Shown here: positions 49,394 to 64,000 of the stretch, piece by piece
How the letters are laid out: each line of letters opens with the position of its first letter
How positions within the stretch are numbered: position 1 is the first letter of the stretch
Assembly (NCBI RefSeq): GCF_013410665.1
Contig: NZ_JACCFM010000001.1
Coordinates: 3,224,001-3,288,000 of the forward strand
Length of the DNA stretch: 64,000 nucleotides
Reading direction: 5' to 3'
From: Leifsonia psychrotolerans
Lineage (GTDB): Bacteria > Actinomycetota > Actinomycetes > Actinomycetales > Microbacteriaceae
Notes under the pieces: generated by a model
Told to the model about the DNA's origin: nothing
The model's database searches: none
The model's input: only the letters and a program-made list of their open reading frames with translations
Position numbers and translations under genes: made by a program

Positions 49394-50230
49394 CTAGAAG
49401 ATCATCGGGCGGTCGTCGTCCTCGCCGTCGATCTCGACGTCGACGACAACGGGCACGTGATCGCTCGGGGCGTCGCCCTTGCGCTCGTCACGGTGAATCG
49501 ACGCATCCGTGACCAGGTCGGCGAAGGCCGGTGAGCCGAGGATGAAGTCGATTCGCATGCCCTCGTTGCGGGGGAAGCGCAGCGCCTTGTAGTCCCAGAA
49601 GGTGAAACCGTCAGGCACGATCGGCCGCACGACGTCGGTCAGCCCGGCCGCCTCGAAGGCGTGGAAGGCGGCGCGCTCCTCCGGGGAGATGTGCGTGGAG
49701 GTGCCGTGCACGAAGCTCGGGTCGCCCATGTCGGCGTCTGTGGGTGCGACGTTGAAGTCGCCCATCAGGGCGAGCGCGAGCTGCGGATTGCGCGCGAGTT
49801 CGGCGCGGGTGTGGGCGTCGAGGGCGGCCAGCCAGTCCAATTTGTAGTGCAGGTGCGGGTCGCCGAGCGCCCGACCGTTCGGCACGTACAGGCTCCACAG
49901 GCGCAGGTCGTTCACCGTCACGCCGAGCGCGCGGGCTTCCTGCGGCTGGTCGGGGCCTTCCTGGCCTTTCAAGAAGCCGGGCATGCCGGGGAAGCTGGTG
50001 ACGACATCCGTCATCTCGACACGGCTGGCGAAAGCCACGCCGTTCCACTGGTTGAGGCCGTGAATCTCAAGCCCGTAGCCGGCCTCTTCGAACTGCTCCC
50101 GGGGGAACTGCTCCGGCTTGCACTTGATCTCCTGCATGGCGAGCACGTCGATGTCCTCGCGCACCATCCAGTCGACGGTGCGGTCGACGCGGGCACGAAT
50201 CGAGTTGACGTTCCAGGTGGCGATGCGCAT
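49394..50230 (-). CDS. xth: Exodeoxyribonuclease III (AP endonuclease, EEP fold)
   Basis: 278 residues starting MRIATWNVNSIRARVDRTVD. Metal ligand Glu is in LAMQEIKC, with LWSLYVPNGRALGDPHLHYK, LMGDFNVAPTDAD (D/N pair), FTFWDYKALRFPRNEGMRID and a final DEWKGD-type APSDHVPVVVD. All catalytic blocks of the Xth/ExoA family are present. It cleaves 5' of abasic sites and degrades DNA 3'-5' in base-excision repair. Monocistronic or leading a short operon with the lipoprotein gene; divergent from the F420 locus. Confidence 0.95.
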   Translation of the reverse strand: MRIATWNVNSIRARVDRTVDWMVREDIDVLAMQEIKCKPEQFPREQFEEAGYGLEIHGLNQWNGVAFASRVEMTDVVTSFPGMPGFLKGQEGPDQPQEARALGVTVNDLRLWSLYVPNGRALGDPHLHYKLDWLAALDAHTRAELARNPQLALALMGDFNVAPTDADMGDPSFVHGTSTHISPEERAAFHAFEAAGLTDVVRPIVPDGFTFWDYKALRFPRNEGMRIDFILGSPAFADLVTDASIHRDERKGDAPSDHVPVVVDVEIDGEDDDRPMIF

Positions 50231-50311
50231 GACATCAAGCCTATTTGCTGGGCGTGCGCGTCGGCGCCAACGGGTCGAGCGGATGCCGGGTGCAGAGGGC
50301 AGAATAGGTCA

Positions 50312-51313
50312 ATGACATCAGTGCAGATCGGTTATGCGGCGATGCTGGAGCAGTTTGCTCCGGCGGATGCCGTTGCTCACGCGGCCTATGCCGAGCAGCA
50401 CGGATTCAGCGGAGTGATGGCCTCAGACCACTTTCAGCCCTGGATGCCGGCGCAAGGGCAGTCCTCGTTCGTCTGGAGCGTGCTCGGCGCGCTGGCGGAG
50501 CGAACGACGGGCGACTTCGGGCCCGGCGTGACGGCACCCACCTTTCGATACCACCCGGCCATGGTCGCGCAGGCCTCAGCCACGCTCGCCTCGATGTATC
50601 CGGGTCGGCACTGGCTCGGCCTCGGTGCCGGAGAGGCACTGAACGAGCACATCTCCGGGGCCTATTGGCCTGAACCGCACGAGCGCATCAACCGCATGTT
50701 CGAGGCCATCGACATCATCAGCAAGCTGTTTACTGCGTCGATCGCCGGCCGTGACGTGAAACATTCCGGCCAGTACTTCACGCTCGAGTCGACACGGCTC
50801 TGGACGATGCCGCCCGTCGCCCCCGAAATTTACGTTGCCACGGCCGGACCCGTCACGGCCAAACGGGCCGGGCGTGTGGCCGACGGCCTGATCACTGTCG
50901 GTGCGCCGCTCGAGAAGATTCCCCTGCTCTTGAGCAAATTCGAGGCGGGTGCGCGCGAGGTGGGCAAGGACCCCGCGGTGATGCCCCGGGTGGTGCAGTT
51001 GCATCTGAGCTGGGCCGAGACCGATGAGATCGCGATGGCGAACGCGCTGCGCGAATGGCCGAATGGGGCCATGCGGTTCCCGAAGGGCGATATCCGCTCG
51101 CCATTTGAATTCGAACAGATCGCCAAGCTCGTGCGGCCCGAAGATTTCGACGGGCGCATGGTGATTTCGGCCGACCCCGACGTGCATCGCGCGCAGATTC
51201 AGCGCTATGTCGACCTGGGCTTCGATCGCATCTATCTGCACAATGTGGGCCGCAATCAACGTGAGTGGATCGACGTGTTCGGCCGCGACGTACTTCCGAA
51301 ACTGGTGAGGTGA
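50312..51313 (+). CDS. LLM-class F420-dependent oxidoreductase (Fgd/TIGR03557-like)
   Basis: 333 residues from ATG 50312. [60 protein letters not shown], and [19 protein letters not shown] are very close to the glucose-6-phosphate-dehydrogenase-type F420 enzymes. DHFQPW, GVTAPTxRYHP and GAGEALNEH are hallmark motifs. True Fgd uses glucose 6-phosphate to reduce F420; whether this one does so is not certain. The stop is 2 bp before cofE, so the oxidoreductase and coenzyme synthesis are co-expressed. Confidence 0.92.
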
Positions 51314-51315
51314 CC

Positions 51316-52194
51316 ATGACGAATTCCGATGGACTGCACGTCTTCGTGCTGAGCGGCATTGGTGAGATTGCCGCCGGGGACGACCTCGCATCGATTATCG
51401 CTACGGCGGCCGGTGACCGGCTGTGCGACGGCGATATTTTAGCGGTGACCAGCAAGATCGTGTCGAAAGCCGAGGGGCGACAGGTCGCCGCGATCGACCG
51501 GGAACAGGCGATCACCGACGAAACCGTGCGTGTCGTGGCGAGCCGTACGCATCCGGGTGGGGTGACGCGCATCGTCGAGAATAGGCAAGGCCTCGTCATG
51601 GCCGCCGCGGGCGTTGACGCGAGTAATACGCCCGACGGCGTCGTGCTGCTCCTCCCGATCGACCCGGATGCCTCCGCCCGCGCCCTCTGCGCCGAACTGC
51701 GCCGCCACACGGGCCTAGCGCTCGGGGTGCTGCTCACCGACACGGCCGGACGCCCCTGGCGCGACGGTCAGACTGACATCGCGATCGGTGCGGCCGGGGT
51801 TGCGGTGCTCGACGACTTACGCGGCACGACGGATGCCTCCGGTCGCCGCCTCGACGTCACCGTCGCGGCCGTCGCCGATGAGATCGCCGGGGCCGCCGAC
51901 CTGGTCAAGGGCAAAGCGAGCGGCAACCCGGTCGCCGTGGTGCGCGGGCTCGGGCGATTGGTGCCGGTGGCGCTCGACGGAGGTACGGTCGGCGGGGCAC
52001 GACGTCTGCAGCGGGCGAGCGCGCAGGACATGTTCCGGCTGGGCAGCGCCGAGGCGCATGCCGAGGGCCACGCCGAAGGATACGCGGCGGGATACGCGGC
52101 GGGGCAGGAAACCGGCTACGAAACCGGCTATGCCGAGGGCGTCGACGACGGCTTGGAAGCGGGCCGCAACGAGGCCAGCGACGTCGAAGCGTGA
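51316..52194 (+). CDS. cofE: Coenzyme F420:L-glutamate ligase (CofE domain) with Gly/Glu-rich tail
   Basis: 292 residues from ATG 51316. [74 protein letters not shown] and [20 protein letters not shown] are the CofE signature. The enzyme adds gamma-linked glutamates to F420-0 using GTP. Mycobacterial FbiB has an extra flavin domain; here only CofE is present. After residue 250 there is an unusual repetitive tail, [20 protein letters not shown] followed by GYETGYAEG. The stop overlaps cofC (GTGA). Confidence 0.95.
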
Positions 52195-53102
52195 GCTGGG
52201 TCGCTGTGGTTCCCGTGAAGGGAACGCCCGCCGCCAAGAGTCGCCTGGCCGCGCATCCCGAGCGCATCCGACTGGCCGAGGCGTTCGCGATCGACACGGT
52301 TTCGGCGCTGTTGGCGGCGCCGTCGGTCGCGCGCGTCTGCGTCGTGACGGCCGACGACGAGGTCGCCGAGCGGATGCGCGCCCTCGGTGCCGAGATCGTG
52401 CGCGAGCCGCCGCGCCGGGCGCCCGGGGCGCCCGACGTGCGCGAGTTCCGCAGCGCGCCCGAGCTGCCCGGGTTGCCCGGGTTGCCCGAGTTACGCGAGT
52501 TGCCGCAGGATGCCCCTTCGCCGGCATCGATGGGGCGATCTGGGGTATCTCGCGAGATATGGACAGCGCCCGAGTTACGCGAGTTGCCGCAGGATGCCCC
52601 TTCGCCGGCATCGATGGGGCGATCTGGGGTATCTCGCGAAGCGGATATGGCGGCTTGCACGCCCGGCGCGAGCGGGACACCCGGCGCGTTCGACGCGCTC
52701 AACGCCGCCATCCGTCAGGGAGTCGTGGTCACGTGCGCGACGGACCCAGGGTGCAATGTTGCCGTGGTCACGGGCGACCTTCCTGCGCTGACCGTCGCCG
52801 ACCTCGAGACCGTGCTGGCACTGGCCAGCACCCACGACCGGTCGATGGTCGCCGACGAGGAGGGCACCGGAACGACGATGCTGCTTGCCCGTGCGGGCGT
52901 GCCGTTCGAGCCCCGGTTCGGCGTCGGCTCGCGCGCCGCACATGAGGCGGCGGGGCATATTCCGCTCGATCTCCCGCTTGACTGCACCTGTCGCCGCGAC
53001 GTCGACACGGTAGACAACCTCGCCGAGGCGCTTCGGCTCGGAGTTGGCCGCGCGACGAGTGCCTTGATCGCCGCGACGACAGTAATCAGTCCGACGCTGT
53101 AG
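52191..53102 (+). CDS. cofC: Phosphoenolpyruvate/2-phospho-L-lactate guanylyltransferase (CofC/FbiD) with internal insertion
   Basis: 303 residues from GTG 52191. [80 protein letters not shown] and FGVGSRAAH are the conserved family blocks. It makes the GTP-activated three-carbon precursor of F420. Residues about 72-155 are an insertion not found in typical CofC (about 215 residues). It contains an 84-bp tandem duplication (52485-52568 and from 52569) encoding two near-identical [20 protein letters not shown] units. The flanking core is intact, so the enzyme may still work. Confidence 0.92.
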
Positions 53103-53104
53103 GG

Positions 53105-53335
53105 CGAGCGAAGCGGGCTGCCCCGCTGGTCGAGCTCGTCGAGACCCGCCGGGCTGCCCCGCTGGTCGAGCTCGTCGAGACCCGCCGGGCTGCCCCGTTG
53201 GTCGAGCTCGCCGAGACCCCGTGAGCCAATGTCGAGACGTGGTCGCGTGATCTCGACACGCTCGATCAACGGATGTCGGGGGTCGGGTTGCCCCGTTGGT
53301 CGAGCTCGTCGAGACCCCGTGAGCCAATGTCGAAA
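53105..53335. repeat. GTCGAGA-type array between convergent cofC and cofD
   Basis: Three direct copies of CCCCGCTGGTCGAGCTCGTC (the third begins CCCCGTTGG and has CGCC) are followed by GAGACCCGCCGGGCTG, then inverted halves (GATCTCGACACGCTCGATCA) and a further forward copy. They end 14 bp before the cofD stop. No gene is supported here. Confidence 0.9.
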
Positions 53336-53348
53336 CTCTGCGCGCCGC

Positions 53349-54347
53349 CTACGAGCCGGCACCGAGCGCGAGCACAGCGGCGGCGATCGCCGCGGTCGAG
53401 GCAACGTCGCGCATCCAGAGCGGCACCGCAGCCGAGCGGATACCGGCGGCCAGCAGCGCGGGCAGGGCTGCGGCATCCGTTTCGTCGACCAGCCAGGCGT
53501 CGAGCAGTCCACCCGCATTGCGTGCGCCGTAGTGCAGCCCGACGGCGGCGGCCGAGGTCTCGACGCCGATGACGCTGAGGCAGGTATCGGCCATGCCGCG
53601 CACGGCGCTGCCTCCGACGATCGGCGAGACGCCAACGACCGCGGCCGATGTCGTGCGCAGTGCGTCGGCGATGCCGGGAACGGCGAGGATCGTCCCCACC
53701 GACACCACCGGGTTCGACGGCGGCAGAATGACCAGATCAGCGTCGAGAATAGCCTCAAGAACGCCCGGTGCAGCCTCGGCCTGATCGAGCCCAACCTGAA
53801 TGAATTCGGTCACCTCGGCCTGTGCCCGATAGCGCACCCACCACTCCTCGAAATGCAGCAGGTCGCCCGCGCGGTGTTCGTCCACGTCGGCGGCAAGGCG
53901 CACATGCGTCTCGACCGGCTGGTCGCTCATCGGCAGGATGCGCGCGGCCGGCTGCCAGCGCCGACACAGGAACGCGGTCGCCTCGCTCAGCGTCGATCCG
54001 GTGCGCAACAGGTCGGTGCGCACGATGTGGGTCGCCAGGTCGAGGTCGCCGAGGGTGAACCAGGACCAGCCGCGCCCGTAAGCCGAGATCTCGGCCGCCG
54101 CGCGCCGTGTCTCGTCGGGACGCCCCCAGCCCTGCTCCTCGTTGATGCCGCCGCCGAGTGTGTACATCACAGTGTCGAGGTCGGGGCAGATCCGCAATCC
54201 GTCGAGCCACATGTCGTCGCCGGTATTCACGACGACGGTGACCTCGGTGGGCGCATCCGTGGGCACAGCGCGGCGCTCCAGCTCGTGCAGCAGCCCCCGA
54301 GTAAAACGGGCGCCGCCGACGCCGCCGGCCAGAACAACGATCTTCAT
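53349..54347 (-). CDS. cofD: 2-phospho-L-lactate transferase (CofD/FbiA)
   Basis: 332 residues starting MKIVVLAGGVGGARFTRGLL, the GGVGGAR motif that binds the guanylated substrate. It continues with VVNTGDDMWLDGLRICPDLD, TLGGGINEEQGWGRPDET, WFTLGDLDLATHIVRT, ILPMSDQPVETHV and VILPPSNPVVSVGTILAVPG. It joins the activated phosphoenolpyruvate/lactate to the deazaflavin Fo to give (dehydro-)F420-0. The start overlaps the stop of an ABC ATPase gene (ATGA), so the transferase and transporter are translationally coupled. Confidence 0.96.
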   Translation of the reverse strand: MKIVVLAGGVGGARFTRGLLHELERRAVPTDAPTEVTVVVNTGDDMWLDGLRICPDLDTVMYTLGGGINEEQGWGRPDETRRAAAEISAYGRGWSWFTLGDLDLATHIVRTDLLRTGSTLSEATAFLCRRWQPAARILPMSDQPVETHVRLAADVDEHRAGDLLHFEEWWVRYRAQAEVTEFIQVGLDQAEAAPGVLEAILDADLVILPPSNPVVSVGTILAVPGIADALRTTSAAVVGVSPIVGGSAVRGMADTCLSVIGVETSAAAVGLHYGARNAGGLLDAWLVDETDAAALPALLAAGIRSAAVPLWMRDVASTAAIAAAVLALGAGS

Positions 54348-55270
54348 CTCTGACGTTCCATTCCGTTTCGTTGCTCACGAGTGCTCACCATGTCGTTCGG
54401 TGAGAAGCGAGCGCCAGCGCGCGTCTGGAACACTCGCGACCCCGCCCTTGGGGCTGGGGGCGTCGAAGTCGACCTCCCCACTGGTGCAAACACAATGAGC
54501 GGATGCCCACCCCGCGGATGCGGAATGACGTCACAGTCGACACCGTAGGCCGCCGCGATCGTCGCCGGTGTCAGCACCTCGGCTGGGGGGCCCGCCGCGA
54601 CCAGCCGGCCCTCCTGCAGCAGCAGCAGGTGATCGCAGTAGGTGGCCGCCAGATTGAGGTCGTGCAGGGCCGCGACGGTCGTGAAGCCGAGCTCGCGCAC
54701 CTGGCTGAGCAGCGAGAGCTGGGCGTTGACATCGAGGTGGTTGGTCGGCTCGTCGAGCAAGAGAAGCTGGGGCTGCTGCGCGAGTGCGCGCGCGATCTGC
54801 ACACGCTGTTGTTGGCCTCCGCTCAGACTGTGCCAGGAACGGTCGGTCAGATCGGCGATACCGACTCGAGTCAGGGACTCCGTGACGATCAAACGGTCCT
54901 CGTCCCCGCTGAACCCGCCGAAAAGTCCGGTGCGGTGGGGGATGCGGCCCAGCAGCACAACGTCGAGAACACGCAGGTCGACGCCCGGCGACGCGCTCTG
55001 TTCGAGCAACGCGATGCGTTGGGAACTTTCGCGTCGTCGAAGCTCTGACACCCGGGAACCATCTAGGTCAACGCTGCCGGTGTTCGGCTTCTCGATGCCG
55101 GCGATCAGCCGCAGCAGTGTGGACTTGCCGGCGCCATTCGGGCCGAGCAGCCCCGTCACCTGGCCGGGTGGAAGCTCTGCCGACACCGCGTCCAGAATGC
55201 GCCGCTCGCCGATCGAAAACGACAGGTTTCGGATGGCGAGGGTTGCGTTCGCGCCCCGAGTCACGCCCAC
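54344..55270 (-). CDS. ABC ATP-binding protein of the putative F420-0 transporter
   Basis: 308 residues from GTG 55270 (GAGAGG 6 nt upstream), with GTG 55264 as the alternative. Walker A GLLGPNGAGKSTLLRLI is near 42, signature WHSLSGGQQQRVQIARAL near 145, Walker B LLLLDEPTNHLD and H-loop VAALHDLNLAA. It belongs to the FecE/BtuD importer type. Its place between a FecCD permease and cofD matches the family named putative F420-0 ABC transporter ATPase. The C-terminal 50 residues are low complexity and run into cofD. Confidence 0.9.
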   Translation of the reverse strand: MGVTRGANATLAIRNLSFSIGERRILDAVSAELPPGQVTGLLGPNGAGKSTLLRLIAGIEKPNTGSVDLDGSRVSELRRRESSQRIALLEQSASPGVDLRVLDVVLLGRIPHRTGLFGGFSGDEDRLIVTESLTRVGIADLTDRSWHSLSGGQQQRVQIARALAQQPQLLLLDEPTNHLDVNAQLSLLSQVRELGFTTVAALHDLNLAATYCDHLLLLQEGRLVAAGPPAEVLTPATIAAAYGVDCDVIPHPRGGHPLIVFAPVGRSTSTPPAPRAGSRVFQTRAGARFSPNDMVSTREQRNGMERQR

Positions 55271-56367
55271 GTCGCACCTCTCTTTCGGGTGATCAGCAGG
55301 ATGAACACGGGAACGCCGATGAATGCCGTGATGATGCCGACGGGCAGCTCGCGCGGGTCGAACACGGTGCGGGCGAGGGTATCGGCGACCACCAGGAAGA
55401 GCGCGCCGGCGACGGTGGCGAGCGGCAGCATCCGTCGGTGGCCGGGGCCGCTCAACCCGCGCACGAGGTGCGGAAGAATCAGGCCGACGAAACCGATCGC
55501 GCCGCTGACCGAGACCATGGCACCGGTGAGCAGCGCAACACCGCCGAGAAGCAGCCAGCGGGTTGCGTTCACGTTGATGCCCAGTGAGGCGGCCGCCGTG
55601 TCGCCGAAGGCGAAGGCGTCGAGACGGGTGGCCGAGAGCAGGATGGCGGTGCCCACCACGAGAAGAGCGCCGAGCGAGATGCCCACGCTGTCCCACGAGG
55701 CGCCGGCGACCGAGCCGAGCAGCCAGTTGAGAATTTCGCGGTACGAGTCGCCCTTGGCCGACCAGAAGATGATGAACGAGGTGCCGGCGGCGCCGAGTTG
55801 CGCGATGGCCAGGCCCGCCAGCACGGCGCGGCTCGGCAGGATGGTGCCGCCCGTGCGCGCGATGCTGAGGGTCGCGACGAGCGCGGCCAACGCGCCGACG
55901 AATGCGGCGAGCGGCAGGGCGAAGCCGAGGCCGAGAATCACGACGCAGACTGCCCCGAGCGAGGCCCCCGAAGAGAGGCCGAGCAAGTAGGGGTCGGCGA
56001 GCGGGTTGCGGGTCACGCTCTGCATCACGGCGCCCGAGAGCGCGAGTCCGGCGCCGACCGCGGCGGCCGTGAGCACGCGCGGCAGTCGCAGCTGCCAGAC
56101 GATCGCGTCGGTGAGCGGGTCGACGCCTGAAGCTCCCCAGCCGAGGTGGGCGGCGATGCTTCGCGCGACATCCGTCAGTGACAACCCGGCCGGCCCGATG
56201 GTGACGGCGACGGCGCACACCACGACCAGTGCGACGACGGATACCGCCAGCCACGCGCGCGCCCCTGTGCCCGGATTCGGAGAATTGCGCGACACACCGC
56301 GTCGCAACGAGTCGACACGCTGCAGACGGCTGCGTTCTCCGAATCCGGGCACAGGGGGAGAGGTCAT
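55261..56367 (-). CDS. FecCD-family permease of the putative F420-0 transporter, with a palindrome-encoded N-terminus
   Basis: 368 residues from ATG 56367. After an odd hydrophilic N-terminus of about 35 residues come nine to ten membrane helices with QSVTRNPLADPYLLGLSSGA, LPRVLTAAAVGAGLALSGAV and VSGAIGFVGLILPHLVRGLS, the FecCD/BtuC signatures. The N-terminus (MTSPPVPGFGERSRLQRVDS, then LRRGVSRNSPNPGTG) is encoded entirely by the family C palindromic element at 56264-56355. Thus a mobile-like repeat has become coding sequence, or supplied the start. GTG codons just after the element could be the ancestral start. Confidence 0.9.
   Translation of the reverse strand: MTSPPVPGFGERSRLQRVDSLRRGVSRNSPNPGTGARAWLAVSVVALVVVCAVAVTIGPAGLSLTDVARSIAAHLGWGASGVDPLTDAIVWQLRLPRVLTAAAVGAGLALSGAVMQSVTRNPLADPYLLGLSSGASLGAVCVVILGLGFALPLAAFVGALAALVATLSIARTGGTILPSRAVLAGLAIAQLGAAGTSFIIFWSAKGDSYREILNWLLGSVAGASWDSVGISLGALLVVGTAILLSATRLDAFAFGDTAAASLGINVNATRWLLLGGVALLTGAMVSVSGAIGFVGLILPHLVRGLSGPGHRRMLPLATVAGALFLVVADTLARTVFDPRELPVGIITAFIGVPVFILLITRKRGATWA
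56264..56355. repeat. Palindrome family C, copy 2 (perfect 21-bp arms, inside a coding region)
   Basis: Arms 56264-56284 and 56335-56355 are perfect inverted repeats around a 50-bp loop; the arm core is GTGCCCGGATTCGG. The loop contains GCGCGACACACCGCGTC, matching the loop of copy 1 (21229-21319, opposite orientation). It occupies codons 5-35 of the FecCD permease frame. Confidence 0.95.
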
Positions 56368-56377
56368 GGTCGGTGCG

Positions 56378-57421
56378 CTACTGACCGTCGAGCGCCGCGA
56401 ACTGGCTGATCGTCGACGCGACGGCCTCCACATTGCGAGTGCCCGCCTCGGTCGCCGCGAACGGCAGCACGATGTAGCGCTTGTTCTGCACCGCGGTAAG
56501 CCCCTGCGTGGCCGGGTTCGACTCGAGGGTGGCGATCTTCGAGGCGGCGGTGTTCCAACTCGCGTCGACGAGCACGATCACGCTCGGGTCGGCGGCCACA
56601 ATCGACTCCCAGCCCACCGAGGTCCAGCTGTCGTGCACGTCGCCGAAGATATTGTGCAGCCCGGCCGCGGCCAGAATCATCTGGGGTGAGCCGATCCCCG
56701 CGCCCACATAGGGGCTGTCGGTGCCGCTCGAATACCACAGTGCGGTCGGCGCGCCGGTCGCCGGGGCGAGGGCGGCGAGCTCGGCTTTCTGCGTTGAAAC
56801 GAGGGCGGATGCCGCATCCTGCGCCCCAAAAATATCGCCGGCCTGGCTGATCTCCCCGAATACCGTGTCGAACGTCAACGGATCCGGCCGGTAGTCGTCG
56901 CCCTTGCACGCGGCCGGTGAAACGTAGCTGCCGATGCCGAAGCCGGCCAACTGCGAGCGCTCGCCCACGCCGTCGGCGGCAAAGTTCGACTCCCAGCCGC
57001 CGTAGATGAAGTCCGGCTTCAGCGCGAGCACGGCCTCCTGGCCGGGAAGAAAGTCACTGATCGAGGGAAGCGCAGCACCGGCCGCGGCCAGGTTTTCAGG
57101 TAGCGGGCCGTCGAGGAATGCCGTGCCGACGATACGGTCCTCGAGCCCGAGGGCGAGCAGCAACTCGGTCGTCGACGACTTGATGCTGACGATGCGCTGT
57201 GGCGCGGTCGTCACGGTTACCGCGGTGCCGCAATTGTCGACGGTCACGGGAAAGCCGTCTGATGCGGGAGCAGACGCCGCCGCCGAGCCGGTGCTGCCAC
57301 CGGCGGCACCGGCGGGCGCTGTCGCGCAGCCGGCCAGCAGCAACGCCGAGGCGGCGACCGCGACGGTCGACAACGCGATGCGGGGCACTGCCGCGCGGGA
57401 GGGCGAGTAACGAGAGGTCAC
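56378..57421 (-). CDS. Substrate-binding lipoprotein of the putative F420-0 ABC transporter
   Basis: 347 residues from GTG 57421. Lipoprotein signal with lipobox LLLAGC near residue 31. The BtuF/FecB-type domain has APQRIVSIKSSTTELLLALG, the EAVLALKPDFIYGGWESNFA region and WTSVGWESIVAADPSVIVLV. Two cysteines (DNCGTAV and PAACKGDD) may pair. Its operon with FecCD permease, ATPase and cofD matches the family annotated putative F420-0 ABC transporter binding protein. The actual ligand (F420-0, Fo, a corrinoid or a siderophore) is unproven. Confidence 0.9.
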   Translation of the reverse strand: MTSRYSPSRAAVPRIALSTVAVAASALLLAGCATAPAGAAGGSTGSAAASAPASDGFPVTVDNCGTAVTVTTAPQRIVSIKSSTTELLLALGLEDRIVGTAFLDGPLPENLAAAGAALPSISDFLPGQEAVLALKPDFIYGGWESNFAADGVGERSQLAGFGIGSYVSPAACKGDDYRPDPLTFDTVFGEISQAGDIFGAQDAASALVSTQKAELAALAPATGAPTALWYSSGTDSPYVGAGIGSPQMILAAAGLHNIFGDVHDSWTSVGWESIVAADPSVIVLVDASWNTAASKIATLESNPATQGLTAVQNKRYIVLPFAATEAGTRNVEAVASTISQFAALDGQ

Positions 57422-57671: not shown

Positions 57672-59039
57672 CTACGCCCAGCGCTCTATCAGCGAATACT
57701 CCCCGGGCGTGCGCTGCAGCGTCGTCGCGGCCAGCGCTTCGGCGATCGGTTCAATCTCTGCGGGCAACGCACCGGCGGTCACCCGCACGAACGAGCCCGC
57801 CCCCTCGATTGCGAAGAACGGCGACCCGCCCGCGACACGGATGCCGGATGCCGCGAGCTGCACGATCGCATCCCGCTCGTCCTCCACGGCCAGCCAGGCG
57901 TTGATCCCGTCGGCCTGCGGCAGATCGACCCCGCACCGGCGCAGCGACTCGGTCAGTGCCTTTTGCCGGGCGAAGTAGATGCGCCGTGCCTCGCTGATCT
58001 GGCTGATGCTGTCGGAATTGGTGAGCAGATCGTAGAGAATCTTCTGCAGCATGCGGCTGGTCCAGCCGGGCCCCAGCATCCGCCGGGCCACGATCGGGTC
58101 AACGAGTGCGGGAGGCCCGCCGAGCGCGGCGATACGCAGGTCCGGACCGTGCGATTTCGAGTAGCTGCGCACATGCAGCACCCGCTCGGGCAGCCAGGTG
58201 CCGAGGCTGACGTCGGGCGAAATGCTGATCTCGCCCGAGTGGTCGTCCTCGATCACCACCACATCCGCATTGCGTTTGTGCATCTGCAGCAGTCGTGCCA
58301 GCGTTTCGGCCCGCTTCGCCGTCATCGACGCACCGGTGGGGTTCTGTGCGCGAGGCTGCAGGATGATGGCGGTCGGGCCGAGCGTCAGGGCCGCCTCGAA
58401 CGAGGCGGGGACGATTCCGTGCTGATCGATCTCGACCGGCACGCGCTCCAGGCCGAGCTGGTCGAGCAGGTCGAAGAACGGCGGAAAACCGGGACTCTCG
58501 ACGATCACCCGGTCACCGAACCGGGTCACGGCATCGAGGCTGCGGGAGATGGCATCGAGGGCTCCATCGACCACCGTGATCGACGGGGCAGGGTAGGGCC
58601 AGGAGTCGCTCAGCACCGCGAGCAGTTCGGGAATGACGGGTAGATCCTGGTAACTCGGCGTCACCGCGCGCTCCGAGACCCGCGACAGCGCCGGGCCGAG
58701 CGCGGGCAGCAGAACCGGGTCGGGCATGCCGCGTGAGAGGTCGATTCTGGCGTTCTGGTGTCGGCCGACCATGGAATGGCTGCGGGCCGGCAACCACTTC
58801 GGTGCGGCGTCGAGCACAAACGTTCCGCTGCGTCCGCGGGAAGCGATCAGGCCGACAGCACCGAGAGCCTGCCAGGCATGGCTAACGGTGGCCGGGCTGG
58901 TGCCCAAAGCGGCGGCGAACTCACGCACCGTGGGCAATCGGTCGCCGGGCGCGAGTGTTCCGGCCGCGATCAGTCGACCGATCGCGGCAGCGATTCCGGC
59001 GGGTGTGCGGTGCTCAATTGCGTCGAGAAAGATTTGCAT
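57672..59039 (-). CDS. MocR-type regulator: GntR helix-turn-helix fused to class I aminotransferase domain
   Basis: 455 residues from ATG 59039. The winged helix-turn-helix spans about 5-75 (LIAAGTLAPGDRLPTVREFA, then AALGTSPATVSHAWQALGAV). The fold-type-I PLP domain follows, with ILQPRAQNPTGASMTAKRAE, VIEDDHSGEI and RVLHVRSYSKSHGPDLRIAA, where the PLP lysine is in SYSKSHGPDLR. MocR proteins sense PLP or amino compounds. Being divergent from the ureidopropionase gene, it likely controls that operon, as PydR-type regulators do (inference). Confidence 0.93.
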   Translation of the reverse strand: MQIFLDAIEHRTPAGIAAAIGRLIAAGTLAPGDRLPTVREFAAALGTSPATVSHAWQALGAVGLIASRGRSGTFVLDAAPKWLPARSHSMVGRHQNARIDLSRGMPDPVLLPALGPALSRVSERAVTPSYQDLPVIPELLAVLSDSWPYPAPSITVVDGALDAISRSLDAVTRFGDRVIVESPGFPPFFDLLDQLGLERVPVEIDQHGIVPASFEAALTLGPTAIILQPRAQNPTGASMTAKRAETLARLLQMHKRNADVVVIEDDHSGEISISPDVSLGTWLPERVLHVRSYSKSHGPDLRIAALGGPPALVDPIVARRMLGPGWTSRMLQKILYDLLTNSDSISQISEARRIYFARQKALTESLRRCGVDLPQADGINAWLAVEDERDAIVQLAASGIRVAGGSPFFAIEGAGSFVRVTAGALPAEIEPIAEALAATTLQRTPGEYSLIERWA

Positions 59040-59072
59040 AAGCTCTTGCCCCAGACTGATTTCGACGACAGG

Positions 59073-59120
59073 ATGTTTAACGCGTGCGTCACACTCAGAA
59101 ACACAACAGAAATGTTTACG
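59073..59120. promoter_or_regulatory. Direct repeat in the MocR/ureidopropionase intergenic region
   Basis: ATGTTTAACG (59073) and ATGTTTACG (59112) are direct repeats 39 bp apart in an AT-rich stretch. MocR regulators often bind spaced direct repeats. The gap 59040-59219 otherwise holds the two divergent promoters and a GGAGG site for the rightward gene. Confidence 0.35.
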
Positions 59121-59219
59121 TCGAATAATAACAAAAGGACAACGCAGTCCGAGGTTCGACTCAAACTCATTTTCGGCGGTGTGCACGAGCTCATCGCCGA
59201 GCACCATGTGGAGGCAACA

Positions 59220-60083
59220 ATGACCGTTGACAGCTCAAAAATTGTGCGTGCAGCCCTGACCCAGACCACCTGGACGGGTGACGAGGAATCGATGATCGCC
59301 AAGCACGAGGAATTCGTGCGGCAAGCCGCTGCGCAGGGCGCGCAGATCATCTGCTTCCAGGAACTCTTTCACGGTCCGTACTTCGGTATCGTGCAGGACT
59401 CGAAATACTACGAATTTGCGCAGAAGGTTCCGGGCCCGCTCACCGAGCGGTTTTCGAAGCTCGCCGCCGAATACAAGATGGTGATCGTGCTTCCCGTCTA
59501 CGAGGAAGACCAGCCGGGTGTGCTCTACAACACGGCAGCCGTGATTGACGCGGACGGCACCTACCTCGGCAAGTACCGCAAGCATCACATCCCTCACCTG
59601 CCGCAGTTCTGGGAGAAGTTCTACTTCCGTCCCGGCAATCTCGAATACCCCGTCTTCGACACGGCCGTGGGCAAGGTCGGCGTCTACATTTGCTACGATC
59701 GCCACTTCCCTGAAGGATGGCGCGTGCTGGGTCTGAACGGCGCCGAAATCGTCTTCAACCCCTCGGCCACGAAACCGGGTCTCTCGAACCGGCTTTGGGA
59801 GCTCGAGCAGCCGGCCGCTGCGGCCGCCAACCAGTACTACGTGGGGGCCAACAACCGCATCGGCACCGAGACCGAAGAGTTCGGCGAGGATGCCGTGACT
59901 TTCTACGGCAGCTCCTACTTCGCCGACCCGCGCGGCAACTACGTCGGCGAGGTTGCCTCGACCGATACCGAAGAGATCGTCATTCGTGACCTCGACATGA
60001 GTCTCATTCGTGAGGTTCGCAATTCGTGGCAGTTCTACCGCGACCGTCGTCCGGACTCCTACGGCCCGATCGTCGCTCCCTAA
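59220..60083 (+). CDS. pydC: Nitrilase-superfamily carbamoyl hydrolase (beta-ureidopropionase-like)
   Basis: 287 residues from ATG 59220, with GGAGG 5 nt before it. The catalytic Glu is in ICFQELFHGPYFGI, Lys in GKYRKHHIPHLPQFWEKFYF and Cys in GVYICYDRHFPEGWR. The Glu-Lys-Cys triad and the EKFYF motif are those of beta-ureidopropionase/N-carbamoyl amidohydrolases. It releases ammonia and CO2 from N-carbamoyl-beta-alanine (or carbamoyl amino acids). With the downstream dihydropyrimidinase it gives the last two steps of reductive pyrimidine breakdown. Confidence 0.92.
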   Translation: MTVDSSKIVRAALTQTTWTGDEESMIAKHEEFVRQAAAQGAQIICFQELFHGPYFGIVQDSKYYEFAQKVPGPLTERFSKLAAEYKMVIVLPVYEEDQPGVLYNTAAVIDADGTYLGKYRKHHIPHLPQFWEKFYFRPGNLEYPVFDTAVGKVGVYICYDRHFPEGWRVLGLNGAEIVFNPSATKPGLSNRLWELEQPAAAAANQYYVGANNRIGTETEEFGEDAVTFYGSSYFADPRGNYVGEVASTDTEEIVIRDLDMSLIREVRNSWQFYRDRRPDSYGPIVAP

Positions 60084-60162
60084 CGACCGATCGCCCGACT
60101 GCGTGCCGAGACCGCTCTCGGCACGCACGATCGGCGAACCCGCCGAACCATGGCTTGTCAAT

Positions 60163-60405
60163 CGTGTCGAGACACAGCCTCACCGTGTATCGAAACACAG
60201 CCTCACGGTGTATCGAAACACAGCCTCACGGTGTATCGAAACACAGCCTCACCGCTTGTCGAGACATTGCCCCACCGCTTGTCGAGACATTGCCCCACCG
60301 CTTGTCGAGACATTGCCCCACCGCTTGTCGAAACACAGCCTCACCGCTTGTCGAGCTTGTCGAGACAATGTCAGCGGATCTCGACAAGCTCGATCAGCGG
60401 TCCGC
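60163..60405. repeat. Eight-copy 23-bp tandem array plus GTCGAGA palindrome
   Basis: From about 60163 to 60346, eight 23-bp units read as variants of CTTGTCGAGACATTGCCCCA followed by CCG. The first four carry GTATCGAAACACAGCCTCAC and the next three carry the CATTGCCCC type. The array ends in CTTGTCGAGCTTGTCGAGA and inverted GATCTCGACAAGCTCGATCA (to 60405). It separates the pydC-like and pydB-like genes (gap 60084-60450). Confidence 0.92.
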
Positions 60406-60450
60406 CTCGCTCACCGCACCACAGGAATCCCGCACAACCCAGGAGACCCC

Positions 60451-61911
60451 ATGAAGACGCTTATCAAGAACGGAACTGTCGTCAACGCGACCGGCACTGC
60501 GCGTGCCGATGTGTTGATCGACGGTGAGACCATCGCCGCGGTGCTCGCACCCGGCAGCTCGCTGCTCGGCTTCGACATCGAACGGAACGTCGATACCGTG
60601 ATCGACGCGGGCGGCAAGTATGTGATCCCCGGCGGCATCGACGCCCACACTCACATGCAGATGCCGTTCGGTGGCACCGAGGCCTCCGACACCTTTGAAA
60701 CGGGAACGCGCGCCGCGGCCCATGGCGGAACGACGAGCATCGTCGACTTCGTTGTGCAGTATGCCGGCGAGAACGTGATCGATCAGTACAAGCTCTGGCA
60801 CGAGAAGGCGCTCGGCAATTGCGCCATCGACTACGGCTTTCACCAGATCCTCTCGGATGTGCAGGATTCGAGCCTGACAGCGATGGACGAACTCGTTGCC
60901 GAGGGCGTCTCGAGCTTCAAGCTCTTCATGGCCTACAAGGGCGTCTTCCTCTCGGACGACGGCCAGATCGTCAAGGCCATGCAGCGGGCCAGCGACAACG
61001 GCAGCATGATCATGATGCACGCCGAGAACGGCAGCGTCATCGATCTGCTGGTGCAGCAGTCGCTCGCCGCCGGCAAGACCGCTCCCTTCTATCACGGCAT
61101 CACGCGGCCGTGGCAGGCCGAGGAGGAAGCCACCCATCGAGCGATCATGCTCGCGAACCTCACCGGCGCTCCTCTGTATATCGTTCACGTTTCGGCCAAG
61201 CAGGCGGTCGAGCAGATCGCTCTGGCCCGTGACAACGGTCAAAATGTGTTCGGTGAGACCTGCCCGCAGTACCTCTACCTCTCTCTGGAAGACCAGCTCG
61301 GCGCGTCGAGCGAAGAGTGGGGCGACTTCGAGGGGGCCAAGTGGGTCTGCTCGACGCCGCTGCGTTCGAAGGCCGAGGGCCACCAGCATCACATGTGGCA
61401 AAGCCTGCGCACCAACGACATCCAAATGGTCTCGACCGACCACTGCCCGTTCTGCATGAAGGGGCAGAAAGACATGGGCCTGACCGACTTCTCGAAGATC
61501 CCGAACGGTATCGGCTCGGTCGAGCACCGCATGGACCTGCTCTATCAGGGAGTGGTCGACAAGAAGATCACGCTCGAGCGTTGGGTAGAAGTCTGCTCAA
61601 CGACCCCCGCACGCATGTTCGGAATGTACGGCAAGAAGGGCGTCATCCAGCCCGGTGCCGACGCCGACGTCGTCATCTACGACCCCAATGGTCATACCTC
61701 AATCGGCATGCCGACGGATGCGCATGGCGCTCCGACGGGGCGCACTCACCACATGAATATGGACTATTCCGCCTGGGAGGGTTACGAGATCGACGGTCAC
61801 GTCGACACCGTTCTCTCACGCGGAAAGGTCATTGTCGACAACAACCAGTACCTCGGGCGCAAGGGAGACGGCCAGTTCGTCAAGCGCGGCCTGAGCCAGT
61901 ACCTGATCTAA
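60451..61911 (+). CDS. pydB: Dihydropyrimidinase/hydantoinase
   Basis: 486 residues from ATG 60451, preceded by AGGAGA. Metal ligands: IDAHTHMQMPFGG (HxH), SFKLFMAYKG (carboxylated Lys), MMHAENGS, and YIVHVSAKQA. TDHCPF supplies the catalytic Asp, as VSTDHCPFCMKGQK. PGADADVVIYDP closes the amidohydrolase domain. It hydrolyses dihydrouracil/dihydrothymine or hydantoins to N-carbamoyl amino acids, the substrate of the upstream enzyme. The 23-bp repeat array before it may affect its relative expression. Confidence 0.95.
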   Translation: MKTLIKNGTVVNATGTARADVLIDGETIAAVLAPGSSLLGFDIERNVDTVIDAGGKYVIPGGIDAHTHMQMPFGGTEASDTFETGTRAAAHGGTTSIVDFVVQYAGENVIDQYKLWHEKALGNCAIDYGFHQILSDVQDSSLTAMDELVAEGVSSFKLFMAYKGVFLSDDGQIVKAMQRASDNGSMIMMHAENGSVIDLLVQQSLAAGKTAPFYHGITRPWQAEEEATHRAIMLANLTGAPLYIVHVSAKQAVEQIALARDNGQNVFGETCPQYLYLSLEDQLGASSEEWGDFEGAKWVCSTPLRSKAEGHQHHMWQSLRTNDIQMVSTDHCPFCMKGQKDMGLTDFSKIPNGIGSVEHRMDLLYQGVVDKKITLERWVEVCSTTPARMFGMYGKKGVIQPGADADVVIYDPNGHTSIGMPTDAHGAPTGRTHHMNMDYSAWEGYEIDGHVDTVLSRGKVIVDNNQYLGRKGDGQFVKRGLSQYLI

Positions 61912-61922
61912 GGGCGAACCAG

Positions 61923-62939
61923 ATGGATTTCGGAGCAGTACTGCAGACCAACCCACCGTCGGCACGCACGGTGCAGCTGGCCAAGCTGGCAGAGGAGCAT
62001 GGGTTCAGCCACGTCTGGACCTTCGACTCTCACCTGCTGTGGCAGGAGCCCTATGTGATTTACAGCAAGATCCTCGCGGAAACCCGCAAGGTGATCGTGG
62101 GACCGATGGTCACCAACCCGGCGACCCGGGATTGGACCGTGACGGCCTCTACCTACGCCACGCTCAATGAGATGTACGGCAACCGCACGATCTGTGGCAT
62201 CGGCCGTGGCGACTCGGCGGTGCGGGTGACCAACGGAGCCCCGACCACGTTGAAGAGCCTGCGGGAGTCGATTCATGTCATCCGTGAGCTGGCGAACTCA
62301 CGCTCGGTTGAATACAACGGTGCGACGCTGCAGTTCCCGTGGAGCACCGGCTCGAAACTCGATGTCTGGGTTGCCGCGTATGGGCCGCTCGCGCTCAAGC
62401 TCACGGGTGAGGTCGGCGACGGCTTCATCCTGCAGATGGCCGACCTCGATGTGGCCGAGTGGATGATCAAGACCGTTCGCAACGCTGCCGAAGCCGCCGG
62501 GCGCGACCCGATGGCTGTGAAGTTCTGTGTGGCAGCGCCCATGTATATCGGCGACGACATCGAGCACATGCGTGACCAATGCCGCTGGTTTGGCGGCATG
62601 GTCGGCAATCACGTGGCCGACATCGTCTCGAAGTACGGCACCGATTCGGCAGTGCCGAAGGCGCTCACCGACTACATCAAGGGTCGTGAGGGCTACGACT
62701 ACAACGAGCACGGCCGAGCCGGCAACACCCACGCCGACTTCGTGCCCGACGAGATCGTCGACCGGTTCTGCGTGATGGGCACGGCCGACCAACACATCGA
62801 GAAGCTCAAGGCCCTGAAAGAACTCGGCGTCGACCAGTTCGCCGGCTACCTGCAGCACGACAACAAAGAGGAGACCCTCCGGGTGTACGGAGAGACGGTC
62901 ATCCCGGCACTTTCCGAGCACATCGTGGCCAAGGCATGA
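61923..62939 (+). CDS. LLM-class F420-type oxidoreductase in the pyrimidine/hydantoin operon (TIGR03842-like)
   Basis: 338 residues from ATG 61923. MDFGAVLQTNPPSARTVQLA, FSHVWTFDSHLLWQEPYVIY, GPMVTNPATRDWTVTASTYA, TLNEMYGNRTICGIGRGDSA and VWVAAYGPLALKLTGEVGDG are luciferase-like TIM-barrel features with F420-type spacing. It lies 11 bp after the dihydropyrimidinase and overlaps the permease by 4 bp (ATGA), so it is a true operon member. It may oxidise or reduce the pyrimidine ring, replacing or adding to the usual NADPH-dependent dihydropyrimidine dehydrogenase. That role is inferred. Confidence 0.9.
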   Translation: MDFGAVLQTNPPSARTVQLAKLAEEHGFSHVWTFDSHLLWQEPYVIYSKILAETRKVIVGPMVTNPATRDWTVTASTYATLNEMYGNRTICGIGRGDSAVRVTNGAPTTLKSLRESIHVIRELANSRSVEYNGATLQFPWSTGSKLDVWVAAYGPLALKLTGEVGDGFILQMADLDVAEWMIKTVRNAAEAAGRDPMAVKFCVAAPMYIGDDIEHMRDQCRWFGGMVGNHVADIVSKYGTDSAVPKALTDYIKGREGYDYNEHGRAGNTHADFVPDEIVDRFCVMGTADQHIEKLKALKELGVDQFAGYLQHDNKEETLRVYGETVIPALSEHIVAKA

Positions 62940-63895
62940 CTCGCACCCTCGAGACGACGCAGTCGATCGGCACCGCGCAACTGAACGCGGGCCGGTCGGG
63001 CTCGTCTCGAACGCGGCGGAGTCGCACGGGCATGTGGCGCACGGCGAGCATTGGCGCGCTGGGCATCGTTCTGCTCGGCCTGATCTGGGAACTGTACAAG
63101 TTTCTCGGACCCGCCGAGGGCGTCGTCATCGGTGGCGTCACCGTGCTGCCACGCACCAGCGACTTGGCCATGCCGCATCTCTGGACGATGTTCAGCCGGG
63201 CGCTGGAGCCGGTCACCGGTGGCGCGAATGCCCTGCCGGTGTGGCAGGCCGTTCTGCAAGGCTCGCTCTTCACGCTCAGCATCGCCGCGGTCGGTTGGCT
63301 CGTCGGAGTGTCGGTCGGGATGGCGCTGGCGTTGCTTATGCAGCGCTTTCGTCTGGCCGAGCAGGCCGTCTTGCCGTGGATCATCCTGAGCCAGACGGTT
63401 CCTCTGATCGCCATTGCCCCGCTCGTCCGGCGCTGGGGCGCGCAGATCCATTTCGGCGAATTCACCTGGGAGAACTGGATGTCGGTCGCCCTGATCGCCT
63501 CCTACCTCGCGTTCTTCCCGGTCTCGGTCGGCGCGCTGCGCGGCCTCGGTTCGCCGGATGCCGCCCACGTCGACCTCATGCACTGCTATTCGGTCGGGTG
63601 GTGGAAGACGCTCTGGCGCTTGCGCCTGCCGGCCAGTGTCGGCTATCTGCTGCCCGCCCTGCGGTTGGCTGCGGCCAGCGCGGTGATCGGTGCCGTGGTC
63701 GCCGAGGTGTCGATCGGTCTGCGCGGCGGCATCGGTCGGCTGATCGTCGAGTATGCCGGCGCCGCCAGCAGCGACCCGGGAAAGCCCTGGGCGCCCATCT
63801 TCGGTTCCGTTCTCGTCGGCCTGGTGGCCGCCGGGTTCGTGGGCCTCATCGGTTTGTTCCTTCGTCGTTTTCGCAGGGGAGAGGTTGCATCATGA
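62936..63895 (+). CDS. ABC transporter permease of the pyrimidine/hydantoin operon
   Basis: 319 residues. An N-terminal Arg/Ser-rich tail is followed by about seven membrane helices and the loop DLMHCYSVGWWKTLWRLRLP, the inner-membrane coupling helix (EAA-like) of SsuC/ThiX-type permeases. RASYLAFFPVSVGALRGLGS-like segments support the family. It is ATGA-coupled to both the LLM gene before it and the ATPase after it. It probably imports the pyrimidine or hydantoin substrate; the binding protein should lie beyond the window. Confidence 0.9.
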   Translation: MTRTLETTQSIGTAQLNAGRSGSSRTRRSRTGMWRTASIGALGIVLLGLIWELYKFLGPAEGVVIGGVTVLPRTSDLAMPHLWTMFSRALEPVTGGANALPVWQAVLQGSLFTLSIAAVGWLVGVSVGMALALLMQRFRLAEQAVLPWIILSQTVPLIAIAPLVRRWGAQIHFGEFTWENWMSVALIASYLAFFPVSVGALRGLGSPDAAHVDLMHCYSVGWWKTLWRLRLPASVGYLLPALRLAAASAVIGAVVAEVSIGLRGGIGRLIVEYAGAASSDPGKPWAPIFGSVLVGLVAAGFVGLIGLFLRRFRRGEVAS

Positions 63896-64000
63896 GTGCG
63901 AAAGCATCGGGAGTGGCTGCGGGTTCGCTCGCCGTCGACGTGACTGAGGTCAGCAGGATCTTCACGGGCAAGAAGGGTGCATCCGTCGCTGCGCTCGACA
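63892..64000 (+). CDS. ABC transporter ATP-binding protein (partial, N-terminus only)
   Basis: Starts at ATG 63892, overlapping the permease stop (ATGA) and preceded by GGGGAGAGG. The 36 visible residues, starting MSAKASGVAAGSLAVDVTEV and continuing SRIFTGKKG, match the first strand of a nitrate/sulfonate-type ABC ATPase (V-x-V-x-x-V-S-R-x-F). The Walker A motif would come just after the window edge, so identity rests on context. Confidence 0.75.
   Translation, partial: MSAKASGVAAGSLAVDVTEVSRIFTGKKGASVAALD

Follow-up and report, generated by a model that had tools for sequence, protein, structure and literature searches.

A luciferase-like oxidoreductase encoded in a pyrimidine-degradation operon of Leifsonia psychrotolerans is predicted to reduce the pyrimidine ring with F420H2

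The stretch analysed here (the window) comprises 64,000 nucleotides, bases 3224001-3288000 of the single-contig genome (3.82 Mb) of the actinobacterium Leifsonia psychrotolerans. Towards its end it carries a predicted operon for reductive pyrimidine degradation (Pyd), in which an oxidoreductase of the luciferase-like monooxygenase (LLM) class is encoded directly behind a dihydropyrimidinase gene. The initial annotation had proposed that this LLM protein reduces the ring with F420H2 in place of the dihydropyrimidine dehydrogenase PydA, a role that is supported by the absence of pydA, the linkage to pyd genes, the co-occurrence with dihydropyrimidinase and CofE, and the predicted fold. To read the operon past the window end, the sequence was extended by 14 kb; later coordinates are given in the window frame. 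The proposed order of regulator, hydrolase, dihydropyrimidinase, LLM, permease and ATPase genes was confirmed, each at its expected position:

57672 to 59207, minus strand: MocR-type regulator (GntR plus aminotransferase; Pfam GntR and Aminotran_1_2), divergent
59220 to 60083, plus strand: pydC, carbon-nitrogen hydrolase (Pfam CN_hydrolase), predicted beta-ureidopropionase
60165 to 60354, no strand: tandem repeat (repeat search; 23-bp unit, 8.3 copies) in the gap between pydC and pydB
60451 to 61911, plus strand: pydB, dihydropyrimidinase (TIGR02033, 537 bits, cut-off 393)
61923 to 62939, plus strand: LLM-class oxidoreductase of the TIGR03842 family, predicted F420H2-dependent dihydropyrimidine (uracil/thymine) reductase
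62936 to 63895, plus strand: ABC transporter permease 1 (Pfam BPD_transp_1)
63892 to 64728, plus strand: ABC ATPase, crossing the window end
64725 to 65504, beyond the window: second ABC permease
65605 to 66765, beyond the window: NMT1/THI5-like binding protein
66873 to 68192, beyond the window: class III aminotransferase (PRK06062 family, 745 bits)
about 68626 to 70125, beyond the window: methylmalonate-semialdehyde dehydrogenase (MMSDH)-type dehydrogenase (TIGR01722, 673 bits, cut-off 448.5)
thereafter, beyond the window: a gene read by eye only, without profile scan, as orotate phosphoribosyltransferase

The genes had been described as tightly spaced throughout, which is valid only from pydB onward because a gap of 367 bases bearing the tandem repeat lies between the hydrolase gene and pydB. 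The LLM gene starts 11 bases past the end of pydB, and 4-base overlaps with the preceding gene are seen for permease 1, the ATPase and the second permease. The true start of the regulator probably lies near 59039, as judged from the beginning of the GntR match. PydB scored above the cut-off of the dihydropyrimidinase family, and its best solved chain is a dihydropyrimidinase (3sfw, 467 bits). The solved chains nearest to PydC are CG3027-PA (2vhh, 192 bits), an N-carbamoylputrescine amidohydrolase (5h8i, 190 bits) and a beta-ureidopropionase (8pt4, 178 bits), PydC scoring alike against the latter two enzyme types. The aminotransferase and semialdehyde dehydrogenase that mark the downstream part of Pyd clusters are both present by gene family, with predicted substrates. 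The LLM protein and the MMSDH-type dehydrogenase are the only oxidoreductases of the operon. Thus, with the pyd families present and pydA absent, the operon consists of the Pyd steps after ring reduction and one oxidoreductase without assigned function.

This LLM protein is a single chain of 338 amino acids and matched NCBIfam TIGR03842 (F420_CPS_4043), a family with the status 'hypothetical equivalog', over the entire profile (1-329 of 329; 600.3 bits, cut-off 295.45). The predicted structural model is a luciferase-like barrel and, among the ranked Foldseek matches listed, lies nearest to the F420-dependent enzyme Mer, which would place the protein with the luciferase-like hydride transferases (LLHT), defined by such a barrel closest to F420-dependent members. 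The structural comparison proposed in the initial annotation thus gave F420-dependent enzymes as the closest among the matches listed. Identity with Mer (8qpl, 1z69) was ruled out by the missing catalytic Glu6 and by a score of 137 bits against TIGR03555 (cut-off 348.7), and the neighbours of the LLM gene are pyd and F420 genes, not C1 genes. The position matching Glu6 was occupied by V in 6, C in 14 and T in 24 of 44 sequences of the TIGR03842 family and by Glu in none; a passage in PMC11094777 gives 0.4% of kcat as retained by the E6Q variant of Mer. Conserved residues of the LLM protein include D97, Q171, H37, H230 and Y260. None of the six other LLM proteins of the genome qualified as RutA, the single RutA match reaching 77 bits against a cut-off of 498. 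No phage relatives of the window protein were found at E 1e-20 among 50,697 records. In a FastTree tree of 145 sequences, it fell into a clade with 55 others, 48 of these with pyd genes.

No pydA was found in the extension past 64,000, and no protein of the complete genome exceeded the cut-off of the PreA/PydA profile (NF006183), in agreement with the earlier observation on the window. The best match (32.9 bits against 335) is PyrD, the quinone-dependent dihydroorotate dehydrogenase, and a second weak match reached 23 bits; an overlooked pydA, be it further along the operon or in another part of the genome, was therefore rejected. Likewise, 140 LLM neighbourhoods translated in six frames contained no match to E. 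coli PreA or PreT, the PreA query having recovered 6/6 known PreA loci at 40-44% identity. PreA was over the cut-off in 2 of 296 Actinomycetota genomes and in none of the 62 encoding the LLM protein. From other phyla, 50 of 80 LLM-bearing genomes were tested, including metagenome assemblies of uncertain completeness: one had PreA below the cut-off and 43 had no match at E 1e-60, with PreA over the cut-off in the other six. Two LLM-bearing Leisingera genomes (loci L189 and L191) possess, apart from the LLM gene, another locus in which PreT and PreA are encoded together with a RutR-like protein and the Zn-dependent amidase, and thus perhaps two parallel uracil routes.

Gene neighbourhoods were compared in two sets. 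The first comprised 60 Actinomycetota loci, each from a different LLM-positive genome; of the 62 such genomes, that of the window and one whose LLM gene abuts a contig edge were omitted. The second comprised 80 loci of other phyla from GTDB species genomes; these 80 ranked highest among 581 confirmed relatives by similarity to a Paracoccus protein, and the set is therefore skewed to Proteobacteria. Neighbours were called by BLAST of reference proteins with at least 60 bits, 40% query coverage and 25% identity, an identity threshold that makes the labels loose outside close relatives. Four plasmid loci (L012-L015) were excluded from the counts; the Rhodococcus plasmid protein at L015 showed 33% identity. 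One locus retained among the 80 (L018) stems from a contig filed as Nocardioides marinus and carries an F420 operon; its LLM protein shares 82% identity with that of Paracoccus, and its RutR-like gene 92% with that of Leisingera. It is probably a contaminating Rhodobacterales contig.

In Actinomycetota, pydB was found in 46/60 loci, pydB or pydC in 53/60 and both in 46/60, accompanied by a class III aminotransferase in 41/60 and an NCS1 transporter in 26/60. The arrangement of the LLM gene with pydB/pydC and without PreA, for which the initial annotation had suggested a survey, recurs in this phylum. Among the seven loci lacking pyd genes are some on short contigs (3.4 and 3.9 kb). MocR relatives occurred at 7/60 of these loci and at 0/80 in the other phyla; cof genes and npdG were present at none of the 60. 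The loci of other phyla contained pydB (32/80), the carbon-nitrogen hydrolase type of pydC (14/80) or a Zn-dependent hydantoinase/carbamoylase-type amidase (32/80), with any pyd gene in 48/80 and pydB together with a pydC in 27/80. Any cof gene was present at 54/80 and npdG at 47/80, the latter separated from the LLM gene by a median of 25 bases; taken together, pyd or F420 genes occurred at 74/80. In Paracoccus denitrificans (L016), the genes follow one another as cofG-cofH-cofD-cofC-cofE-npdG-LLM, and the opposite strand carries a pydB relative close by; two of the excluded plasmid loci (Paracoccus, Leisingera) are annotated with the same gene order. At nine Devosia-type loci (L063, L064, L067-L070, L072, L073, L092), the LLM gene adjoins cofE and the genes of a putative F420-0 importer; Fgd is encoded at 8/9 and pyd genes at none within the fetched stretch, a setting that suggests cofactor salvage outside Actinomycetota as well.

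The LLM protein and dihydropyrimidinase (TIGR02033) also co-occurred at the genome level. Among the 296 Actinomycetota genomes, 62 encoded the former and 89 the latter: both were present in 61, the LLM protein alone in one, dihydropyrimidinase alone in 28 and neither in 206 (Fisher p 4e-40, kinship not corrected). Within one genus, the LLM protein was present in 145/150 genomes. CofE exceeded its cut-off in 50/50 tested non-actinobacterial LLM genomes. A baseline of 276 genomes was drawn from the class of an LLM-bearing Marinomonas genome, that genome included, and covers this class only; here CofE was present in 13/276 and the LLM protein in 2/276, the Marinomonas genome and one other, both of which also encode CofE, no more than 1 kb from the LLM gene. 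Together with the adjacent F420 genes, the CofE counts point indirectly to F420 as the predicted cofactor of the LLM protein.

In L. psychrotolerans, F420-related genes lie upstream of the operon:

51265 to 52194, plus strand: cofE, F420-0:gamma-glutamyl ligase (TIGR01916, 227 bits, cut-off 181)
52191 to 53102, plus strand: cofC/fbiD, predicted guanylyltransferase, 303 amino acids (TIGR03552, 133 bits, cut-off 105)
53349 to 54347, minus strand: cofD/fbiA transferase (TIGR01819, 350 bits, cut-off 257)
54344 to 55327, minus strand: putative F420-0 ABC transporter ATPase, start unsettled (TIGR03873, 342 bits, below the cut-off of 372)
55261 to 56433, minus strand: putative F420-0 ABC transporter permease (TIGR03869, 468 bits, cut-off 437)
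56378 to 57421, minus strand: putative F420-0 ABC transporter substrate-binding protein (TIGR03868, 434 bits, cut-off 392)

Of the F420 synthesis locus that had been placed 5 kb away, the distance holds, as roughly 5 kb separate cofD from the hydrolase gene. The locus itself encodes late steps and a putative F420-0 importer, and full synthesis is unsupported: CofH reached 20 bits in the complete genome against a cut-off of 374, CofG not being searched separately. CofE consists of the ligase domain only, PRK13294 being matched at 8-257 of 449. The genome also encodes Fgd, the F420-dependent glucose-6-phosphate dehydrogenase (693 bits). As late cof genes and a putative importer are present and no CofH exceeded the cut-off, F420 is probably salvaged by uptake of FO or F420-0 and reduced by Fgd. 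A second LLM protein (50186-51310), one of the six compared with RutA above, adjoins the F420 genes and matched TIGR03557 (F420-glucose-6-phosphate-dehydrogenase-like; 289 bits, cut-off 210), and also TIGR03885, of the flavin mononucleotide (FMN) type, with 316 bits, under that family's cut-off. A perfect 84-bp tandem repeat of 1.9 copies is located inside the cofC reading frame (52484-52639), and an array of 2.9 copies of a 36-bp unit in the gap between cofC and cofD (53114-53219).

Based on these data, we consider it likely that the LLM protein of the window is an F420H2-dependent dihydropyrimidine (uracil/thymine) reductase acting in the place of PydA; as a non-homologous, F420-linked replacement it is well supported by comparative genomics, while both the reaction and uracil as its substrate are predictions. 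Pyrimidines would probably be imported by the ABC transporter, and the MocR protein would probably sense an amine of the pathway. F420H2, regenerated by Fgd from the genome's own gene set, would pass its hydride straight to C6 of uracil (or thymine), and protonation at C5 would yield 5,6-dihydrouracil. Judging from its strong family match, PydB would open the ring, and the carbon-nitrogen hydrolase, by its family, would release beta-alanine, CO2 and ammonia. The class III aminotransferase and the MMSDH-type dehydrogenase may then lead via malonate semialdehyde to acetyl-CoA, or to the methyl analogue from thymine.

The passages on Pyd clusters in PMC7332683 describe an NADPH-dependent PydA, a ferredoxin-dependent PydAc of Clostridium and an NADH-dependent PreAT. 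The LLM protein would share with PydA and PreAT the predicted conversion of uracil to dihydrouracil and the partners PydB, PydC, aminotransferase and semialdehyde dehydrogenase, but it is a single chain of another family and fold, with F420H2 as predicted donor instead of an electron path through FMN and Fe-S centres. Two further systems are comparable, as far as the respective sections describe them. In uric acid clusters of Chloroflexota, a putative F420-dependent luciferase-family reductase has likewise been put forward as taking the place of a PydA homologue for a uracil-type ring; the proposal concerns yanthine in SsnA clusters (PMC12507026). SSGG-03002 / NpsU of the mureidomycin and napsamycin clusters, a putative F420/FMN-dependent oxidoreductase, is needed in vivo for reduction of the uracil C5-C6 bond, but in antibiotic biosynthesis and with no in vitro activity obtained; the likeness is one of described role, fold and family not being named (PMC10714638). 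Among the matches listed in openly licensed PMC literature, partly from 2018 onwards, no report of F420-dependent uracil reduction by the TIGR03842 family was found, which is weak evidence of absence.

Several observations weigh against the proposed role. A shared fold is no proof of the cofactor. Beyond close relatives, the Pyd hydrolase and aminotransferase labels may include hydantoinases or other class III aminotransferases; the actinobacterial aminotransferase matches are mostly near 30% identity, and the aminotransferase of the operon itself is nearest to taurine aminotransferase. No pydB or pydC was present in the fetched stretch of 32/80 non-actinobacterial loci, in some through contig ends, and PreA occurs elsewhere in 6/50 of the tested genomes. 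Of 234 Actinomycetota genomes lacking the LLM protein, 28 encode dihydropyrimidinase, and PreA is absent from 27 of these 28; dihydropyrimidinase hence does not by itself imply ring reduction. Finally, the LLM protein is missing from 11 of the 13 genomes with CofE in the draw from the Marinomonas class, so F420 has other uses there, and the idea that F420 is kept solely for this enzyme was ruled out; the LLM protein accompanies F420, yet F420 occurs without it.

Dihydropyrimidinases accept hydantoins, and the binding protein of the operon is NMT1/THI5-like. Both would fit an F420H2-dependent ring reductase whose main substrate is another uracil-like ring (e.g., a modified or thiamine-type pyrimidine or a purine-derived ring), subsequently opened by dihydropyrimidinase. 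We regard this as unlikely. Breakdown of uracil or thymine would call for an aminotransferase and an MMSDH-type enzyme, and the operon has genes for both. Moreover, the LLM gene is repeatedly accompanied at other loci by RutR-like regulators and NCS1-type nucleobase transporters: unbiased clustering of open reading frames from 84 loci returned one cluster in 33 loci with a RutR-like representative (178 bits, cut-off 368) and one in 18 loci with a representative resembling NCS1-type nucleobase transporters (332 bits, cut-off 353).

It appears still less probable that the LLM protein acts elsewhere in the pathway, e.g., downstream of beta-alanine in the F420-dependent oxidation or reduction of a semialdehyde or hydroxyacid, with the ring being reduced by another enzyme. 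In favour of this reading, the gene stands beside MMSDH at two loci (L167, L168) with no pyd genes in the fetched stretch; however, the window operon offers no oxidoreductase besides these two types, and no PreA match was obtained in 62/62 actinobacterial and 43/50 other tested LLM genomes. An FMNH2-dependent monooxygenase opening the ring oxidatively like RutA, with which the protein shares the LLM fold and which likewise acts in uracil catabolism, is very improbable; RutA (TIGR03612, cut-off 498.3) was absent from the best 25 of 26 matched families, the 25th scoring 19.7 bits. Nor did any result speak for oxidation of a side substrate, the other option raised in the initial annotation.

The predicted ring reduction by the LLM protein would give a function to an unassigned enzyme family present in 62 of the 296 sampled Actinomycetota genomes and, if true, would place F420 beside NADPH, NADH and ferredoxin as an electron donor for reducing the pyrimidine ring. 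In its relevant sections, a 2021 review on F420 does not name a role in pyrimidine breakdown, poses as an open question what F420 is made for in Proteobacteria and Chloroflexi, and mentions only trace F420 reported for Paracoccus denitrificans (PMC8498797). With slightly better than even confidence, we propose that the TIGR03842 family functions widely as an F420H2-dependent dihydropyrimidine dehydrogenase, that it provides the main reductive uracil entry of Actinomycetota and a reason for scattered marine Proteobacteria and Chloroflexota to keep or import F420, and that in L. psychrotolerans F420 from scavenged FO or F420-0 is spent on pyrimidines. If so, pyrimidine breakdown would be one reason why some bacteria keep F420, which bears on the question left open in that review.

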